This document shows, in pieces, positions 43,243 to 52,853 of a stretch of DNA of 64,000 bases. The notes under the pieces were generated by a model that made no database searches, was not told where the DNA came from, and saw only the letters and a program-made list of their open reading frames with translations. The stretch is taken from the NCBI GenBank assembly GCA_027673765.1, contig JAQDWB010000004.1, positions 96,427-160,426 of the forward strand, given 5' to 3'. The DNA is from Coriobacteriaceae bacterium AM113-163. GTDB taxonomy: Bacteria; Actinomycetota; Coriobacteriia; Coriobacteriales; Coriobacteriaceae. Made by a program: the position numbers and the translations under genes. Numbering within the stretch: the stretch's first letter is position 1; every line of letters starts with the position of its first letter.

Positions 43243-44388
43243 ATGGACCTTGCCGATATTCGCCAGGCCATCGATGGCATCGACACCACGCTCCTCAACA
43301 GCTTTGTCGAGCGCATGGACATTGCCACCGAGGTCGCCAAGTCAAAGATCGAGATGGGCAAGGCCGTCTTTGACCCCGCCCGCGAGCGCTCCAAACTCAA
43401 CAACCTCGCCAGCCGCGCGCCCGAGCGCTACGAGGCCCAGACCATCGCCCTGTTTCGTCTCCTCATGAGCATGAGCAAAGCCGAGCAGCAGCGCTACATC
43501 AACGAGCTCAAGGGCATCACGATCTCGCAAAAGGCCCACGCCACGGCCGCAACCTTCGATACGCCCTTCCCCCAGACGGCCAGCGTTGCCTGTCAAGGCG
43601 TGGAAGGCGCCTACAGCCAGATCGCCGCGTGCAAGCTCTTCGACGTGCCCGATATCGCATTCTTTGAGACCTTCGAGGGCGTCATGCGCGCCGTGCGCGA
43701 CGGCTTCTGCGAGTTTGGCGTGCTGCCCATCGAAAACTCAACCGCCGGCTCGGTCAACGCTGTCTACGACCTGCTCGCCCAGTTCGACTTCTATATCGTG
43801 CGCTCGCTGCGCCTCAAGATCGACCACAACTTGCTCGTCAAGCCCGGCACCAAGTTCGTGGACATACGCGAGGTCTACAGCCACGGTCAGGCCATCGCGC
43901 AGTGCGCTAGCTTTATCGAGGCGCACGGCCTGCACGCCACCAAGTACCCCAACACGGCCATGTCGGCCGAGATGGTCGCCAGCTCCGAGCGCACCGATGT
44001 TGCCGCCATCGCATCGCGCAGCTGCGCGGCACTCTATGGCCTGGAGGTGCTGGAGCCCAACATTCAGGACTCGGACAACAACTACACGCGCTTTGTCGTC
44101 ATCAGCCGCGAGCCGCGCGTCTACCCCGGCGCTAATCGCACCTCGCTCATGATCACCACGGCCAACGAGCCGGGCGCGCTCTATCGCGTACTCGAGCGCT
44201 TCTACGCACTCAACATCAACCTCATCAAGCTCGAGAGCCGCCCCATCCCCGGCCGCGACTTTGAGTTTATGTTCTACTTTGACCTGGACTGCCCCTTTGG
44301 CAGCAAGGCCCTCGACGACCTGCTCGATTCCATCGACGACGTATGCGAGAGCTTCACCTACTTTGGCAGCTACACGGAGGTGCTCTAG
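43243..44388 (+). CDS. pheA: Bifunctional chorismate mutase / prephenate dehydratase
   Basis: P-protein that makes phenylpyruvate. Residues 1-90 are an AroQ-type chorismate mutase (IRQAIDGIDTTLLNSFVERMDIATEVAKSK). The dehydratase domain starts near 105 (VACQGVEGAYSQIAA) with GVLPIENSTAGSVNAVYD and SRSCAALYGLEVLEPNIQDSDNNYTRFVVI. A C-terminal ACT domain (about 300-380, SLMITTANEPGALYRVLERF, then LIKLESRPIPG) predicts Phe feedback. It is 381 residues; the ATG at 43243 follows AAAGGGG. The open frame further upstream lies in aroC. Confidence 0.95.
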   Translation: MDLADIRQAIDGIDTTLLNSFVERMDIATEVAKSKIEMGKAVFDPARERSKLNNLASRAPERYEAQTIALFRLLMSMSKAEQQRYINELKGITISQKAHATAATFDTPFPQTASVACQGVEGAYSQIAACKLFDVPDIAFFETFEGVMRAVRDGFCEFGVLPIENSTAGSVNAVYDLLAQFDFYIVRSLRLKIDHNLLVKPGTKFVDIREVYSHGQAIAQCASFIEAHGLHATKYPNTAMSAEMVASSERTDVAAIASRSCAALYGLEVLEPNIQDSDNNYTRFVVISREPRVYPGANRTSLMITTANEPGALYRVLERFYALNINLIKLESRPIPGRDFEFMFYFDLDCPFGSKALDDLLDSIDDVCESFTYFGSYTEVL

Positions 44389-45639
44389 ATGACCGATACC
44401 GCCGCAACCCGTCCCTACGGCGTGCTGGGCCGTGTGCTGGGCCACAGCTACACCCCGACCATCTACAAAGAGCTCGTTGGGCTTGAGTACGTGCGATTTG
44501 AGCGCGAGCCCGAGGATCTTGAGGCTTTTATGACGGGTAACGAATGGGAAGGCACCAACGTGACCATCCCCTACAAGCGCGCCGTCATGGACTACCTGGA
44601 CGAGCTGAGCCCGCTGGCCGAGCGCATGGGAAACGTTAACACCATCACGCGCCTGCCCGACGGCCGCCTGCGCGGCGACAACACCGACTACTTCGGTTTC
44701 CAGTGCCTAGTCGAGGAGCTGGGCGTTGAAGTTGCCGGCAAGAAGGTCCTCGTGCTTGGTGCCACCGGTGGTGCCGGCACCACGGCAAGCATGGTGCTCG
44801 GCGATCTGGGCGCCGCAGTCGTGCCCGTGGGCCGCACGAGCGAGGTCAACTACGGCAACATCGCGCAGCAGTCCGACGCCGCCCTGCTCGTCAACTGCAC
44901 GCCTGCCGGTATGTTCCCCCACTGCCCTGACGCGCCTTGCACACTCGAGGGGCTCGATGCGCTCGAAGGCGCTATCGACATTGTCTACAACCCCGCCCGC
45001 ACGGGCCTGATGCTCGAGGCTGAGCGCCGCGGCATCCCCTGCATCGGTGGTTTGCTCATGCTTGTGGCCCAGGCGGCGCAAGCCGTCGAGCGCTATACCG
45101 GCCAGGTCACCCCGCGTGAGCGCATCCTGGACGTGACGGAACGCTTGTCACGCCGCGAACAGAACATCGCCCTGATCGGCATGCCGGGCTCGGGCAAAAC
45201 CCGCGTGGGTGAGCAGATCGCCCTGCTCACTGGCCGCGAGCACATCGACTTAGACGCCGCGCTTGAGAAGCGTCTGGGCATGCCCTGTGCCGACTATATC
45301 GTCGAGCGCGGCGAGGCGGCCTTCCGCGAGCAGGAGACGGCGGCGTTGTCCGACATCTCCAAGCGCAGCGGCCTGGTGCTCTCCACCGGCGGCGGCGTGG
45401 TCACGCGGGACGAGAACTACCCGCTGCTGCACCAGAACAGCCAGATTGTGATGCTCAACCGCAAGCTCGACGAACTCGCCCACAAGGGCCGCCCCATCAC
45501 CGCGCGCGACGGGATCGATAAGCTGGCCAAGCAGCGCATGCCACGCTACCGCGCCTGGGCCGACTACATCATCGACTCACGCGATTGCGCCGCCAACACC
45601 GCCCAGGCCCTTCTCGACACCCTCCCGCCCGCTCTCTAA
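44389..45639 (+). CDS. Shikimate dehydrogenase - shikimate kinase fusion protein
   Basis: Two consecutive pathway enzymes in one 416-residue chain. Residues 1-250 are AroE-like: GRVLGHSYTPTIYKEL, NVTIPYKRAVMDYLDE, GNVNTITR, GDNTDYFGF, GATGGAGTTASMVLGDLG and NCTPAGMFP. Residues 258-416 are AroK-like: P-loop GMPGSGKT (264-271), DLDAALEKRLGMPCADYIVERGEAAFREQE and LSTGGGVVTR. Each half keeps its key motifs, so both activities are expected. It begins directly after the pheA stop codon. Confidence 0.93.
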   Translation: MTDTAATRPYGVLGRVLGHSYTPTIYKELVGLEYVRFEREPEDLEAFMTGNEWEGTNVTIPYKRAVMDYLDELSPLAERMGNVNTITRLPDGRLRGDNTDYFGFQCLVEELGVEVAGKKVLVLGATGGAGTTASMVLGDLGAAVVPVGRTSEVNYGNIAQQSDAALLVNCTPAGMFPHCPDAPCTLEGLDALEGAIDIVYNPARTGLMLEAERRGIPCIGGLLMLVAQAAQAVERYTGQVTPRERILDVTERLSRREQNIALIGMPGSGKTRVGEQIALLTGREHIDLDAALEKRLGMPCADYIVERGEAAFREQETAALSDISKRSGLVLSTGGGVVTRDENYPLLHQNSQIVMLNRKLDELAHKGRPITARDGIDKLAKQRMPRYRAWADYIIDSRDCAANTAQALLDTLPPAL

Positions 45640-45641
45640 CC

Positions 45642-45682
45642 AAAACCACCACAAAGGGGACAGGCACTTTTGTGGTGGTTTT
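45642..45682 (+). repeat. Hairpin element between aroE::aroK and aroQ
   Basis: A perfect 14-bp stem AAAACCACCACAAA/TTTGTGGTGGTTTT encloses GGGGACAGGCACT. It could terminate or weaken readthrough into aroQ. A shorter related motif (AAAGGTCCCTGTCTCC) occurs at 5115-5130, so it may belong to a dispersed intergenic repeat family. Confidence 0.6.
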
Positions 45683-45703
45683 CCAATCGCAAAGGAAGCA
45701 ACC

Positions 45704-46141
45704 ATGAAAGCACTCGTCATCAACGGCCCCAACCTCAACATGCTCGGCATTCGCGAGCCGGGCATCTATGGCAGCGACAACTACGACCGCTTAGTGCAGA
45801 TCTGCCAGGAAGCGGGCGCCTCACAGGGCTTCGACGAGGTCGAAGTCTTCCAGTCCAACCACGAGGGCAGCATCGTCGACAAGATCCAGGAAGCCTACGG
45901 CAAGGTCGACGGCATCGTCATCAACCCGGCGGGTTACACGCACACGAGCGTCGCGATCCTCGACGCCCTCAAGGCCGTCGCCATCCCGGCTGTGGAGGTC
46001 CACATAAGCGCCGTCGAGACCCGCGAGGACTTCCGCCAGGTAAGCTACGCCCGCCTGGCCTGCTTCGCCACCATCACCGGCGAAGGCCTCCAAGGCTACG
46101 CCCACGCGTTGGAGCTGCTGAGGAAACATCTCGAAAAGTAG
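45704..46141 (+). CDS. aroQ: 3-dehydroquinate dehydratase, type II
   Basis: Dehydrates 3-dehydroquinate to 3-dehydroshikimate, completing the pathway in this operon. The family motifs are NGPNLNMLGIREPGIYG, FQSNHEGSIVDKIQEAYG, INPAGYTHTSVAILDAL and VEVHISAVETREDFRQ. It is 145 residues. Its last codons (GYAHALELLRKHLEK) have a diverged second copy at 47751, on the far side of a two-gene cassette. Confidence 0.96.
   Translation: MKALVINGPNLNMLGIREPGIYGSDNYDRLVQICQEAGASQGFDEVEVFQSNHEGSIVDKIQEAYGKVDGIVINPAGYTHTSVAILDALKAVAIPAVEVHISAVETREDFRQVSYARLACFATITGEGLQGYAHALELLRKHLEK
46094..46127 (+). repeat. Direct repeat, copy 1 (inside the aroQ 3' end)
   Basis: 34 bases within the last codons of aroQ. 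They match 47751-47784 at 30 of 34 positions. Confidence 0.75.
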
Positions 46142-46187
46142 CCTCGCGAGCAAATCCATCAACGCCGATTCGCACGCTAATATAGCC

Positions 46188-46225
46188 AGTGCCGCCAGCA
46201 GCAACCTCGCTACTGGCGGCACTTT
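46188..46225 (+). terminator. Terminator after aroQ
   Basis: AGTGCCGCCAG/CTGGCGGCACT, a perfect 11-bp stem with a 14-base loop, followed by TTATT. It would end the aro operon transcript. Confidence 0.75.
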
Positions 46226-46235
46226 ATTACTGGCA

Positions 46236-46241
46236 TATAAT
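46236..46241 (+). promoter_or_regulatory. -10 box upstream of the DUF4869-like gene
   Basis: An exact TATAAT, 31 bases before the ATG at 46273. The -35 region is weak. It lies just past the aroQ terminator, so the cassette is probably transcribed independently. Confidence 0.45.
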
Positions 46242-46272
46242 CGTTGCAGTCACACAACGTCTGGAGACGCGC

Positions 46273-46722
46273 ATGTTAAGCATCCATCTGGGAGATTATC
46301 CCGGTTCCATCTACGATACCGAAACCTATTTTAGGAACTCATACTTGAACTCATGGTTCGAAGACCCTATGGCCGCACAGATGATTAAAAGCGTGGACGG
46401 ATCAGAGCTCATCGGTCCCCACAACATCGTAAGCAAACAACTGGGCTCAATCACCCCACTCGAACTGTCCGGCGGCGTCAAGACGCTGCTGCTAGTACGC
46501 AATCTCCCAAACATGGTGTTCAACGCATCGACCTGCGGAGACAACTGTGCCCGCTGGCTACTCAAGATCGGCAAAGAGCAGGATGTGCTGGTGACCCTTT
46601 ACCACATCATGAAGTTCCCCTGGAAGAACTTTGAAATCCGCATTGAAAACGATGACCGCATCGTCAGGAACATGCAGGAGTTTGTCGGTGCCACCAATGA
46701 TTTTCTGGATGTTGATGAGTAA
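46273..46722 (+). CDS. DUF4869-like protein
   Basis: A 149-residue protein of unknown function. Its start (MLSIHLGDYPGSIYDTETYFRNSY) and the overall pattern resemble DUF4869 proteins, which occur beside ATPases; this is recognition by memory, not by search. Residues 85-110 contain VRNLPNMVFNASTCGDNCARWLLKIG, which could be the functional core, and the C-terminus is acidic. There is no membrane helix or signal peptide. Base composition is less GC-rich than the aro genes. It overlaps the next gene by one base (TAATG), so the two products are made together. Confidence 0.65.
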   Translation: MLSIHLGDYPGSIYDTETYFRNSYLNSWFEDPMAAQMIKSVDGSELIGPHNIVSKQLGSITPLELSGGVKTLLLVRNLPNMVFNASTCGDNCARWLLKIGKEQDVLVTLYHIMKFPWKNFEIRIENDDRIVRNMQEFVGATNDFLDVDE

Positions 46723-47723
46723 TGAAGGGAACGCATACCGTTGTCGTAGAGCGTGCAAAGGTCAAATACACGCTCACCTTTAAGCGCAACATCTCCTTTA
46801 TACGCGGCAACAGCGGGACGGGCAAAACGACGCTCATCTCGATGATACGCGACTACAACGACCGAGGACCGGAAAGCGGCGTTACACTCAGCTGCGACGT
46901 GCCCTGCGAAACGCTTTCCGGCAGACGCTGGGAGCGCGAGCTGTCGATCTTCGAAGATTCAATCGTCTTTCTAGATGAGGGCAACGAGTTTATCTATTCA
47001 AAGGACTTCGCCAAAGCCGTAAACGGCTCATCCAACTATTTTGTCCTGATATCTCGTCGCGATGCCAACGAGCTCCCCTACAGCGTCGACGAGATCCTAA
47101 AGCTAGTCAACACCACAAGCAAGACAATTAATGGCCGCAAGAGCGACAGACGCTTCTACTCGGTGACCAAGCCGCTATATGACCACACGGCAAGCATGTT
47201 GTATCAGGATCTAAATGTTGGATTCGAGATACCCGACGCCGTAGTTGTTGAGGATAGCAAATCTGGCTATCAATTCTACAACGCTCTTTGCAACCGACTC
47301 GGGATTCCCTGCTATACCGCTACCGGCGTTGCGAATCTAAAACGAACAATTCACGACTGCCCCGAACAAAACATTCTTGCCATAGGAGACGGCGCAGCGT
47401 TTGGCCCCTACATCGAAAAGGTGCTGGGACAGCGCGTTTACAAGAACGTTCGCTTGTTCCTCCCGGAATCATTTGAGTGGACACTTCTGCAATCTGGCCT
47501 CATCCCCAACAACGATATCCCAAAGATTCTCGAGGACCCCTCGAACTACATCGAGAGCCGCGACTACCTGAGCTGGGAGCGGTTCTTCACCGACGTATTG
47601 ATCAAGTACTCTGCAGACACTCGCTACGTCTACAGAAAGGCACGGCTCAACGAGCAGTACCTAAAGCCGCAGGCGATGGATGCAGTTGCAAGCGTCTTGC
47701 CCGAGTGTCTGAGGGCGGAATAG
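46722..47723 (+). CDS. P-loop ATPase with TOPRIM-like C-terminal region
   Basis: A 333-residue protein. Walker A is GNSGTGKT (29-36) and Walker B is SIVFLDEG (80-87), both in a short ATPase core; LISRRDANELPYS (109-121) may be a sensor segment. The second half has VVVEDSKSGYQFYNAL (174-189) and NILAIGDGAAFGPYI (217-231), an acidic-strand, helix, strand-Asp arrangement reminiscent of TOPRIM nucleases of the OLD type, though without an ABC signature in the ATPase. This reading is inference. With the preceding gene it forms a compact module that could act in defence or as a regulator. Confidence 0.65.
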   Translation: MKGTHTVVVERAKVKYTLTFKRNISFIRGNSGTGKTTLISMIRDYNDRGPESGVTLSCDVPCETLSGRRWERELSIFEDSIVFLDEGNEFIYSKDFAKAVNGSSNYFVLISRRDANELPYSVDEILKLVNTTSKTINGRKSDRRFYSVTKPLYDHTASMLYQDLNVGFEIPDAVVVEDSKSGYQFYNALCNRLGIPCYTATGVANLKRTIHDCPEQNILAIGDGAAFGPYIEKVLGQRVYKNVRLFLPESFEWTLLQSGLIPNNDIPKILEDPSNYIESRDYLSWERFFTDVLIKYSADTRYVYRKARLNEQYLKPQAMDAVASVLPECLRAE

Positions 47724-47750
47724 CGAGTCCTTAACATCATTTGGAAACCA

Positions 47751-47784
47751 GGCAACGCCCACGCTTTGGAGCTGCCGAGGGAAC
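47751..47784 (+). repeat. Direct repeat, copy 2 (displaced aroQ 3' end)
   Basis: Matches 46094-46127 at 30 of 34 positions. All four differences are single-base substitutions and the frame is kept through a TAA at 47796. Confidence 0.75.
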
Positions 47785-47875
47785 GACTGCTACACTAACC
47801 CTTGGGGCGACACATTAGGTATGTTTGTCCCTAAACTAAAGGAACTGTCCGATTAACATACAAAGGAGCACATCC

Positions 47876-49000
47876 ATGTCCCAGTACGATTACCTCGTCG
47901 TCGGTGCCGGCCTCTCGGGCGCCGTCTTCGCCAACGCCGCCATGCGCGCCGGCAAGTCGGTCCTGGTCATCGACCGCCGCGACCACATCGCCGGCAACGT
48001 CTACACCGAGGACGTCGAGGGCATCCAGGTCCACCGCTACGGCGCCCACATCTTCCACACCTCCATGAGAGACGTCTGGGACTACGTCAACCGCTTCGCC
48101 GAGTTCAACAACTACGTCAACTCGCCGGTCGCCAACTTCCACGGCAATATGTACAACATGCCCTTCAACATGAACACCTTCGCCAAGATGTGGCCGGGCG
48201 TCGTCACGCCGGCGGACGCCAAGGCCAAGATCGCCGAGCAGGTGGCCGCCGAGAACATCGGCGAGCCGGCAAACCTCGAGGAGCAGGCGCTGTCCCTCGT
48301 CGGCCGCGACATCTTCGAGACGCTCGTGAAGGGCTACACCGAGAAGCAGTGGGGCCGCGACTGCCGCGGCCTGCCCGCGAGCATCATCAAGCGCCTCCCC
48401 TGCCGCTTCACCTACGACAACAACTACTTCAACGACCGCTACCAGGGCATCCCCATGGGCGGATACACCAAGATGGTCGCCAACATGCTCGAGGGCATCG
48501 AGGTGCGCTGCGGCGTGGAGTACAAGGAGCTGGCCGCCGCCGAGCTCGATATCGCCGCCAGGACGATCTACTGCGGCCCCATCGACGCGTTCTACGACTT
48601 CAGGCTGGGCACGCTGGAGTACCGCAGCCTGCGTTTTGAGACCGAGACGCTCGACGAACAGGACCACCAGGGCGTGGCCGTGGTCAACTACACCGAGCGC
48701 GAGATCCCCTACACGCGCATCATCGAGCACAAGCACTTTGAGTTCGGCACGCAGGACAAGACCGTCATCACGCGCGAGTACCCGGCCGACTGGAAGCCCG
48801 GCGACGAGCCCTACTACCCCATCAACGACACCAGGAACGAGGCCCTCTACAAGCAGTACGAGGAGCTGGCGGCGCAGGAGGGCGACGTGATCTTTGCCGG
48901 ACGCCTGGGCGGCTACAAGTACTACGACATGGACAAGGCCATCGCCGCGGCCTTCGAGCTTGTCCGCAACGAACTGGGCGTGGAGCCGACTGAGGCGTAG
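47876..49000 (+). CDS. glf: UDP-galactopyranose mutase
   Basis: FAD enzyme converting UDP-galactopyranose to UDP-galactofuranose for surface glycans. The FAD motif is VVGAGLSGAVFA (about 8-19), then DRRDHIAGNVYTE, GAHIFHTS, YTEKQWG, RFTYDNNYFNDRYQGIP and GRLGGYKYYDMD. It is 374 residues. The ATG at 47876 follows AAAGGAG. Its base composition is like the core genome, unlike the neighbours on both sides. An inverted repeat GTATGTT/AACATAC (47818-47862) lies in its leader. Confidence 0.96.
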   Translation: MSQYDYLVVGAGLSGAVFANAAMRAGKSVLVIDRRDHIAGNVYTEDVEGIQVHRYGAHIFHTSMRDVWDYVNRFAEFNNYVNSPVANFHGNMYNMPFNMNTFAKMWPGVVTPADAKAKIAEQVAAENIGEPANLEEQALSLVGRDIFETLVKGYTEKQWGRDCRGLPASIIKRLPCRFTYDNNYFNDRYQGIPMGGYTKMVANMLEGIEVRCGVEYKELAAAELDIAARTIYCGPIDAFYDFRLGTLEYRSLRFETETLDEQDHQGVAVVNYTEREIPYTRIIEHKHFEFGTQDKTVITREYPADWKPGDEPYYPINDTRNEALYKQYEELAAQEGDVIFAGRLGGYKYYDMDKAIAAAFELVRNELGVEPTEA

Positions 49001-49030
49001 AGGCGAGGGCTCAGCCAGCCGATATAAGCA

Positions 49031-49078
49031 AACAGGAGGTCTGGCGCAGCGTTCATGAGCTGCGCCAGACCTCCTGTT
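49031..49078. terminator. Long perfect hairpin between glf and the AAA+ ATPase gene
   Basis: Two perfect 20-base arms (49031-49050 and 49059-49078, beginning AACAGGAGGT) with an 8-base loop lie 30 bases past glf and 9 bases past the convergent ATPase gene. A U-tract is poor on both strands. It probably terminates both transcripts. Confidence 0.65.
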
Positions 49079-49087
49079 ATTAGCGAA

Positions 49088-50269
49088 CTAGTCAATTCGT
49101 TCTGTACGCCTCAAATATCGATCAAACTGAGGTACAGTAAAATCAACCTCTCCTCTTGCGGCGGAGTAAATCATGCCCTTGCTAATTAATTGAGCTCGTA
49201 GGGGTCCAATAGACGAAACGTCTCTCCCCATATAATGAGCCACATTCGCGAGCGTACAGGGAAGCTCGCCGCAGCGAACCATGGCAATCAAAAACTCCTT
49301 TTGCCTTGGAGTGCATCGATCGTACCTAACGCTAAAGAAACCTTCGTCAAGACGCATATCCGTTATAGAGGTGCAGCCGAGCACGGTTTCTAGTGAAATG
49401 AACTTACTATCGGATAAAGTCCAAATGGTCGAACAAAGCTCCTGGATGAAATACGGGTAGCCCTCTGTATAGTCAATGATGACATCGACAGCCTCGTCGG
49501 AATAGCGCACATCAAGCTTTTGTGCGGGCCTGACAATAGCCTCAACCGCCTTGTCACGAGGAAGCGAATCGACCTTCACAAAGCTAAACTGCCTCTCGGA
49601 ATAGGTCTTGGCTTCGCCCAGCATCTTTAGAAGCTTGGGCAAGCCGGCACAGCCAAACATAACGGGAAGGCCAAGCTGGGTCGCGCGATGAAGCGCGCAC
49701 GCCAAGGCTTCAAGTTCTTCTTTACTGGCATACTGCAGCTCGTCAATTCCAATAAAAATCGAAGATCCTGCAGCTTGAGCATATTTTCCTAGAACGACAA
49801 GTATATCGGTAAAATCGCCAGATAGATTATGAGACGAGGCGAGAGACGCCCCAAGAACCTCTTCATTAAAGCCCAGAGACAACGAGCCATCGCCCGCATC
49901 AACAGATAGCGTTAAGGATGCAAACAGGTTCTTAATCTGTTCCAATTTACTCTTAACGAGTTCAATTCGATTAAGCGAAGCCGATAGCGAGCAACAAGCC
50001 GAAGCCAAAGGAGCAATCAAACCCTTCTTCTCTTCGACCTCAATATGGCGGACAAGAATACCCTCGCCCTCGGCTACTGATTCAATCGAGTTAAGCAATA
50101 CTGTTTTACCAACGCCCCTAAGGCCGTACAAAACAAGCGAACGGCTCTGGTAGTTCGCAGCAAGCGCCTTGAGTTGAAGAGAAGCCGCTTCGAGAATATC
50201 GTCGCGCCCGGCAAGATACTTGGGCATCGCGCCCGCACCGGGCGTATACGGATTGCGATAATCGATCAT
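49088..50269 (-). CDS. AAA+ ATPase with C-terminal winged helix (ORC1-like), role unknown
   Basis: A 393-residue ATPase: Walker A GLRGVGKT (49-56), Walker B IFIGIDE (171-177), a sensor-1-like PVMFGCAGLPKL and a lid region (DEAVDVIIDYTEGYPYFIQELC). The last ~80 residues (TPRQKEFLIAMVRCGELPCTLANVAHYMGRDVSSIGPLRAQLISKGMIY) form a winged-helix DNA-binding-like domain. The N-terminus NPYTPGAGAMPKYLAGRDD is typical of stand-alone ORC1-like AAA proteins in Actinobacteria. The ATG follows GGGAG. It stands alone, with lower GC than the core genome, suggesting acquisition. Confidence 0.82.
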   Translation of the reverse strand: MIDYRNPYTPGAGAMPKYLAGRDDILEAASLQLKALAANYQSRSLVLYGLRGVGKTVLLNSIESVAEGEGILVRHIEVEEKKGLIAPLASACCSLSASLNRIELVKSKLEQIKNLFASLTLSVDAGDGSLSLGFNEEVLGASLASSHNLSGDFTDILVVLGKYAQAAGSSIFIGIDELQYASKEELEALACALHRATQLGLPVMFGCAGLPKLLKMLGEAKTYSERQFSFVKVDSLPRDKAVEAIVRPAQKLDVRYSDEAVDVIIDYTEGYPYFIQELCSTIWTLSDSKFISLETVLGCTSITDMRLDEGFFSVRYDRCTPRQKEFLIAMVRCGELPCTLANVAHYMGRDVSSIGPLRAQLISKGMIYSAARGEVDFTVPQFDRYLRRTERID

Positions 50270-51037
50270 TGCAAGCTCCCAAAGAATAACGGCCGACCGA
50301 CAATTTGCTATATATCATACCAAGACAGCGATAGAGCGATACGGGCAGTAGAAAGCACAGTCCGGCGACAATCAACCAAAAAAAGCAGGAAGACGCCAAT
50401 TATCGATTTGCCAATTTCTACAGCATCACTCAATTACACCCTGAACGAGGTTTTATCACGAAAGCTGATGTGTACGCCAGTTCATGAAGTCGGTCGACAG
50501 CCATCCGCGTGAACCGACCATCAGCCAAAATATGATCGCATTCTCAACCATCGCAACGACACCTTCCTGAGGAACGTGTTATCGGTGGCGACGAACACCC
50601 TTGTCCTCGCGGCATGGACTCCCGCGCCGCCGTCGCCACAATTAACGTTCGGCGGTCACGCAAGCACACACGCCACCGTCGACGCCAGAGGTGCATCCGT
50701 GAACGATCCTCAAGCCGAGCGTGCCCATGCATGTCTCGAGACCGCCCCCCGTAGCCGTTCCCGCCGTCCAGCCCCGTCACCGCAGGACAGGACGGCCCCA
50801 ACGTCCATGATGGGGCTGATGGCCTGCTCGGTGAGTGGCCCGGGCGGCGATCGAATGCCTGCCATCCCGTCGGTCGACCTCGGGATGGCAGGGGTCTTCG
50901 GCATCGCGTCTGCTAATATCACCTTAGCGGTCCCCATCCATTCTCAATTAATTTAACTTTCACCGCCATAAAATAGAATACAAATGCGCGATTGCCTGGA
51001 TTTAGTAAAATAGCTACCGCGGAGAAAGGAGCGTCGA
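50270..51037. other. 768-base intergenic region with a decayed GC-rich patch
   Basis: 50270-50530 is AT-rich with no convincing frame. 50540-50935 is strikingly GC-rich compared with both sides. Reading the minus strand, one frame gives a protein-like stretch (ATDNTFLRKVSLRWL, about 50560-50600) interrupted by stops, and a plus-strand frame (50576-50956) is open but looks low-complexity. This fits a decayed gene or insertion remnant that I cannot name. A perfect 11-bp hairpin CCTGCCATCCC/GGGATGGCAGG (50858-50892) ends the patch. 50940-51037 is AT-rich and probably holds the licD promoter. Confidence 0.5.
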
Positions 51038-52711: not shown

Positions 52712-52725
52712 CCAATAAATGCGGG

Positions 52726-52799
52726 TGCTCCATGGCGGATTCGAACCGTCGACCTTGGGATTAGAAGTCCCCTGCTCTATCCAACTGAGCTAATGGAGC
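52726..52799 (-). tRNA. tRNA-Arg (anticodon TCT)
   Basis: Acceptor GCTCCAT/ATGGAGC (perfect), D stem GCTC/GAGC, anticodon loop CTTCTAA (anticodon TCT), T loop TTCGAAT, discriminator A. CCA is not encoded. Two stem mismatches are seen: G27-A43 in the anticodon stem and A50-C64 in the T stem. Confidence 0.92.
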
Positions 52800-52853
52800 A
52801 TAGAGTCATGTAAGTACGCCAGAAGCGTGTTTACACAACGTGTAAATTATAAC

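Follow-up and report, generated by a model that had tools for sequence, protein, structure and literature searches.

The gene pair between two copies of the aroQ end in the window (the whole stretch of 64,000 nucleotides analyzed here, from Coriobacteriaceae bacterium AM113-163, a gut Collinsella) was most likely inserted behind aroQ long ago. We give about even chances to an entry of this DUF4869/ATPase pair into its slot via the last ~38 bp of aroQ, by which it would have been stacked before a glf unit. Site-specific recombination is a plausible but unproven route for this entry.

The repeated aroQ end and the genes it encloses

The aroQ gene (type II dehydroquinase; 45704..46141, + strand; PF01220, E 1e-53) is intact, with the C-terminus ...HLEK-stop. 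Close to its end, positions 46093-46127 (aroQ nt 390-424) are identical at 31/35 bases to positions 47750-47784 downstream, the same repeat that the first-pass annotation had given as 30/34. The best 35-mer reached 25 identical bases in 200 third-order Markov simulations, and 200 random window positions gave a best 35-mer of 30 (once) and otherwise of at most 27, which rules out a chance origin of the repeat. We read the 4/35 differences between the two copies as drift. The first copy of the core (46093..46131, + strand; aroQ nt 390-428) is a candidate attL-like site and carries cassette-associated alleles at nt 390, 419, and 420. The second copy (47750..47798, + strand), a candidate attR-like site or a remnant, reads in frame, as had been claimed, as GNAHALELPRERLLH-stop and ends at 47798. 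In both the window and the genome G013, the intact aroQ ends in EK-stop and the second copy in LLH-stop, the tail of the glf-type relatives.

The two copies enclose the DUF4869 gene (46273..46722, + strand, 149 aa; PF16163, E 3.4e-47) and the P-loop ATPase gene (46722..47723, + strand, 333 aa) and nothing else, in agreement with the first-pass annotation. It had also reported no integrase in the cassette, and we matched no integrase or transfer family there. Between the ATPase gene stop and the second copy lies a 26-bp spacer (47724..47749), which has 25/26 bases in common with G013 and ends with TTTGGAAACC; no aroQ similarity was seen in the spacer or before the second copy. At another slot, in G006 (locus L121), CATTTGGAAAC is found 13 bp upstream of DUF4869; it also occurs close to where the window's spacer ends, which may be chance.

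The cargo behind the second copy is glf (UDP-galactopyranose mutase; 47876..49000, + strand; PF03275, E 1e-83), and the far border of the slot is a tRNA-Arg(TCT) gene (52723..52800, − strand). The window's slot thus measures 6.6 kb, from 46142 to tRNA-Arg at 52723. It also contains an AAA_16-type NTPase gene (49088-50269, − strand; PF13191, E 7e-10), present in the window only among the compared slot stretches, several of which end early. A perfect 20-bp inverted repeat with an 8-bp loop behind glf (49031-49078) is probably a terminator. Just before aroQ (45642-45682), a perfect 14-bp inverted repeat surrounds GGGGACAGGCAC, a motif that is single-copy in the window. Rfam gave no matches at 44000-50500. 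The G+C content of the pair (49.8 and 52.4%) compares with 62.3% for aroQ and 64.8% for the aro operon; since the neighboring glycan-export genes wzt (49.6%) and wzm (48.2%) are equally low, it is no argument alone.

Variable cargo between aroQ and tRNA-Arg

We searched 43 Collinsella genomes, one per species, and found an aroQ match in 42. We assign 22 of these genomes to the window's aerofaciens-like group (88-94% identity in the matched part of aroQ), giving 23 haplotypes with the window. Across the group, the interval from aroQ to tRNA-Arg(TCT) is between 104 bp and 6.6 kb long: in C. aerofaciens and its kin, this is a slot with variable cargo, a hot-spot beside aroQ as the first-pass annotation had considered. 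The slot is empty in 10/22 genomes, where aroQ ends in EK-stop and is followed by 104-105 bp and then by tRNA-Arg(TCT). Six of the 22 genomes carry glf only, with aroQ (LLH-stop) joined directly to the glf leader and one copy of the end, an arrangement that had been proposed as support for integration. tRNA-Arg lies about 1.4 kb after aroQ in five of these six strains; for the sixth, G027, the stretch examined showed no tRNA. As an integration site, tRNA-Arg was rejected, the slot containing no copy of it or of its end.

DUF4869 is carried by 7/23 haplotypes (window, G013, G012, G001, G031, G005, and G007). In the window and G013, the pair is followed by the second aroQ end and then by glf. 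G012 has DUF4869, a deleted ATPase gene, the second aroQ end, and the tRNA. In G001 and G031, the pair precedes an acyltransferase gene (PF01757 in G001, shortened in G031); in G005 and G007, DUF4869 and a deleted ATPase gene precede the acyltransferase gene or its edge, where the contig of G007 ends. The internal deletion of the ATPase gene is similar in G005, G007, and G012 (loci L167, L134, and L173), with DUF4869 kept. The locus is a mosaic, in which the intact and the deleted ATPase alleles each occur in two right-hand contexts.

A second aroQ end is present in 3/7 DUF4869 carriers versus 0/16 other haplotypes, and 20/23 haplotypes have a single end. It was not found in 4/7 cassette strains, including G007 with its early contig end. 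According to the first-pass annotation, a cassette present in all relatives with aroQ always duplicated would speak against integration; we found 7/23 carriers and 3/23 second ends. No cargo other than the pair was seen between duplicated aroQ ends in the group. The tail of aroQ goes with the cargo, being LLH in 6/6 glf-only genomes, EK in 10/10 empty slots and 6/7 cassette haplotypes, and VK in G001.

We evaluated the association between cassette carriage and aroQ alleles, using label permutations that ignore strain kinship (several empty-slot genomes are close kin). The observed minimum p was reached in 0/60 permutations for aroQ nt 386-428, in 4/60 for nt 1-385 (borderline), and in 10/60 for the 1250 bp upstream. 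The association comes mainly from nt 390, with A in 7/7 carriers versus 1/16 others, and single sites outside the core are scattered (p 0.003-0.02, uncorrected). The second copy begins at aroQ nt 387 in G012, 390 in the window, and 391 in G013, thus within 4 bp. Both an association that peaks in the core and near-equal starts of the second copy would be expected if the pair had been inserted through the core.

At fourfold sites, the window differs from the three other intact carriers by 0.15-0.23 in the ATPase gene and by 0.14-0.17 in aroQ; against G005 and G012, the values are 0.37 and 0.46 for DUF4869, and 0.31 and 0.21 for aroQ. On these values, the cassette, with a divergence no lower than that of aroQ, appears to be an old resident without sign of recent mobility. 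In G012, the sequence past the second copy matches an empty-slot genome at 97% identity, and therefore the right side may be a later replacement. Its second copy is without the LLH tail and has 3/32 differences to the aroQ end of G015 (empty slot) versus 6/32 to its own. The spacer likeness between the window and G012 is not significant, being reached in 539 and 394 of 5000 shuffles. Since the window and G013 share their junction, there were at most two independent events; considering the flank, tail, spacer, and second-copy affinity of G012, there may have been just one old founder event, with recombination thereafter.

Routes of entry into the slot

Entry through the aroQ end would involve recombination over the ~38-bp core, by a site-specific recombinase or by homologous recombination. 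The incoming unit would restore the gene end with the aroQ C-terminus that it carried (EK-stop), and the LLH-stop end of the glf cargo would be left behind the pair. The outcome would be two cargo units in series, each headed by an aroQ end. As the EK tail goes with the pair, the LLH tail goes with glf, and both are found in series, the pair seemingly entered at the tip, before the glf unit. We infer both the use of the core as a recombination site and this order of events. The two copies, the single-copy relatives, the linkage of tail and cargo, and the association strongest in the core all argue for such an insertion. Against it count the 4/7 carriers without a second copy, the lack of other repeat-flanked cargo, the occurrence of the pair elsewhere without edge repeats, an association due mainly to one site, the missing LLH tail of the second copy in G012, and the limit of two independent events. 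Of the site-specific integration at a gene 3' end put forward in the first-pass annotation, the insertion is upheld by the single-copy relatives; the site-specific route is plausible but unproven, as neither an integrase in the cassette nor another core site was found.

With up to 3 mismatches, the core was found nowhere outside the aroQ locus in 42 Collinsella genomes (21 matches in 20/42 genomes, one of them the second copy of G013); this search left out G064 and, at 3 mismatches, misses the own aroQ end of G008 and the second copy of G012. As an exact pattern, the core was not found in viral contigs. No integrase-bearing relative using the same core was found in the 42 genomes (one per species) or, by exact pattern, in the viral contigs. 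Edge repeats of the pair were present, among 21 Collinsella loci, only at the aroQ locus of G013 (L113), and were absent from 15 other Coriobacteriia loci and one Agathobacter plasmid, with L113 rerun as the control; this test did not include two more places in G270 or the broken pieces of G264 and G225. Off the edges, matches were found at L122 (40 bp, 80%, at -451/+1303, E 9e-6; a second one gapped, 60 columns, 75%, E 1e-4), L231 (43 bp, 79%, at -147/+434), and L248 (27 bp, 89%, at -500/+1417), with weaker ones (E >=0.001) at L117, L121, L123-L127, and L129-L132. The fragment matched at L231 is similar to an interior stretch of the downstream gene rather than to a gene end. As L113 was the only one of these tested loci with an edge repeat, we rejected the idea that the pair is generally mobile and brings edge repeats of its own. 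We also rejected aroQ as an integration site elsewhere, as the own-end scan gave only short matches: two at E <0.01 (14 and 16 bp) in 75 aroQ loci (L036-L110), and at most 16-23 bp (E 0.018-0.094) in 12/20 other aroQ-bearing Collinsella genomes. The literature search returned no paper combining aroQ with an attachment site, integrase, and integration.

A close rival to insertion through the core, which we entertain tentatively, is the displacement of alleles: a donor aroQ(EK)-DUF4869-ATPase would have recombined in or before aroQ, with an illegitimate right joint, and the recipient aroQ (LLH-stop) would survive as a remnant of its last ~50 bp. It needs neither an integrase nor an att site, and it is consistent with the mosaic of intact and deleted ATPase alleles, each in two right-hand contexts, and with a second core site being found neither in the 42 genomes nor in the viral contigs. 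Homology-facilitated illegitimate recombination and displaced genes are on record (PMC3240628 and PMC5361080). However, the second copies of G012 and of the window and G013 start within 4 bp, which speaks against displacement, as does the lack of a clear donor tract upstream of nt 390 (nt 1-385: 4/60, borderline), although old recombination could have erased such a tract.

The first-pass annotation had also suggested a minimal passive element. That it still moves today, acted on in trans by a tyrosine recombinase whose gene lies elsewhere in the cell, is improbable: the anatomy is like attL/attR, and tyrosine recombinase families were matched in 6/6 relatives searched (which does not imply activity here), but the divergence of the cassette is equal to or above that of aroQ, the two copies have drifted (4/35 differences in the window), the core was not found elsewhere in 42 genomes, and pairs at other loci are without edge repeats. 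A decayed tandem duplication of the whole aroQ with the cassette in between, the alternative named in that annotation, is disfavored and very improbable. The second copy does read in frame to the stop, but no aroQ homology was seen before it, and 20/23 haplotypes are single-ended. Because six relatives have the aroQ-glf junction with a single end, insertion is favored over decayed duplication.

The two proteins and comparable systems

The LSGGVKT motif of DUF4869 (about 46465-46485) is nearly invariant in 41 aligned sequences, and the key residues of Walker A (about 46806-46832) and Walker B (about 46959-46982) of the ATPase are invariant or nearly so in 56. The ATPase also has a candidate TOPRIM-like part (about 47229-47720, + strand). 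An ABC signature (LSGG-like) is absent from the window's ATPase and from the family consensus, and hhalign aligned the ATPase family with ABC families on Walker A. Foldseek gave no match at E <=0.001 for either protein, and Pfam and PDB profile searches gave no link between DUF4869 and ABC proteins; this link comes from structure ranks, the motif, and hhalign only. In PADLOC, NCBIfam, and PHROGs, the ATPase had weak matches, mostly P-loop (in PADLOC confined to the N-terminal P-loop region), and DUF4869 had at most one weak match. Judging from the motifs, this suggests that DUF4869, with its ABC-signature-like motif, and the ATPase, with its Walker motifs and TOPRIM-like tail, could possibly form a split ABC ATPase-nuclease. 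The term DUF4869 appears in no paper of the open-licence literature searched. A phage origin of the pair was rejected: no relative was found in viral contigs, by a search that finds close relatives only, and phage DNA gave no match to the pair; yet five unannotated fecal 'Bacteriophage sp.' records (MT835885, MT836187, MT836825, MT835722, and MT839573) contain ATPase relatives with 34-43% identity.

In OLD-family nucleases, the ABC signature motif is in the same polypeptide as the Walker motifs. The ATPase of the window resembles them in having Walker A and B; unlike them and PARIS, it is without the signature, the signature-like LSGGVKT being found in its partner DUF4869, a separate protein. 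OLD-family ATPase/TOPRIM nucleases (OLD, Gabija GajA, and the retron Eco8 effector) and PARIS AriA/AriB are treated here as one family, in part following PMC10568477.

Cis-mobilizable elements (CIMEs), with tandem accretion at gene 3' ends, have direct repeats of a conserved gene 3' end, no integration or transfer genes, and stacked units headed by the gene end (PMC5704250). The cassette is similar in its flanking aroQ 3'-end repeats (candidate att), the single-copy sites of relatives, the absence of integration and transfer genes, and the stacking of units with an aroQ end at the head of each; it differs in having only two genes, and the searches revealed no parental element that combines an integrase with this core. 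By this analogy, the cassette would be a CIME-like element with putative mobility. In the Dehalococcoides ssrA islands, cargo lies in tandem behind a single gene, between copies of the gene's 3' end, with a 20-bp direct repeat; 16 have an integration module and 15 do not (PMC3146451). Length and place are similar here, the stacked cargo at a gene 3' end is in common with these islands, and the lack of an integration module is in common with 15 of them; in contrast, the repeat there is of 20 bp and 16 islands bear a module, and no module was seen here.

A broader picture is speculative and, in our view, unlikely: small gene-end-capped units of the Collinsella glycan locus would insert and stack at the aroQ tip via an outside recombinase, and the unit here would encode an immune module of two proteins not described before, in which a TOPRIM nuclease is fused to a split ABC ATPase with DUF4869 as the signature half and the ATPase as the Walker half.

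The pair is widespread and unnamed, and has the look of an ABC ATPase-nuclease whose parts are divided between two proteins. The locus illustrates how cargo comes and goes at the tip of one gene in the variable surface-glycan region of a common gut bacterium.
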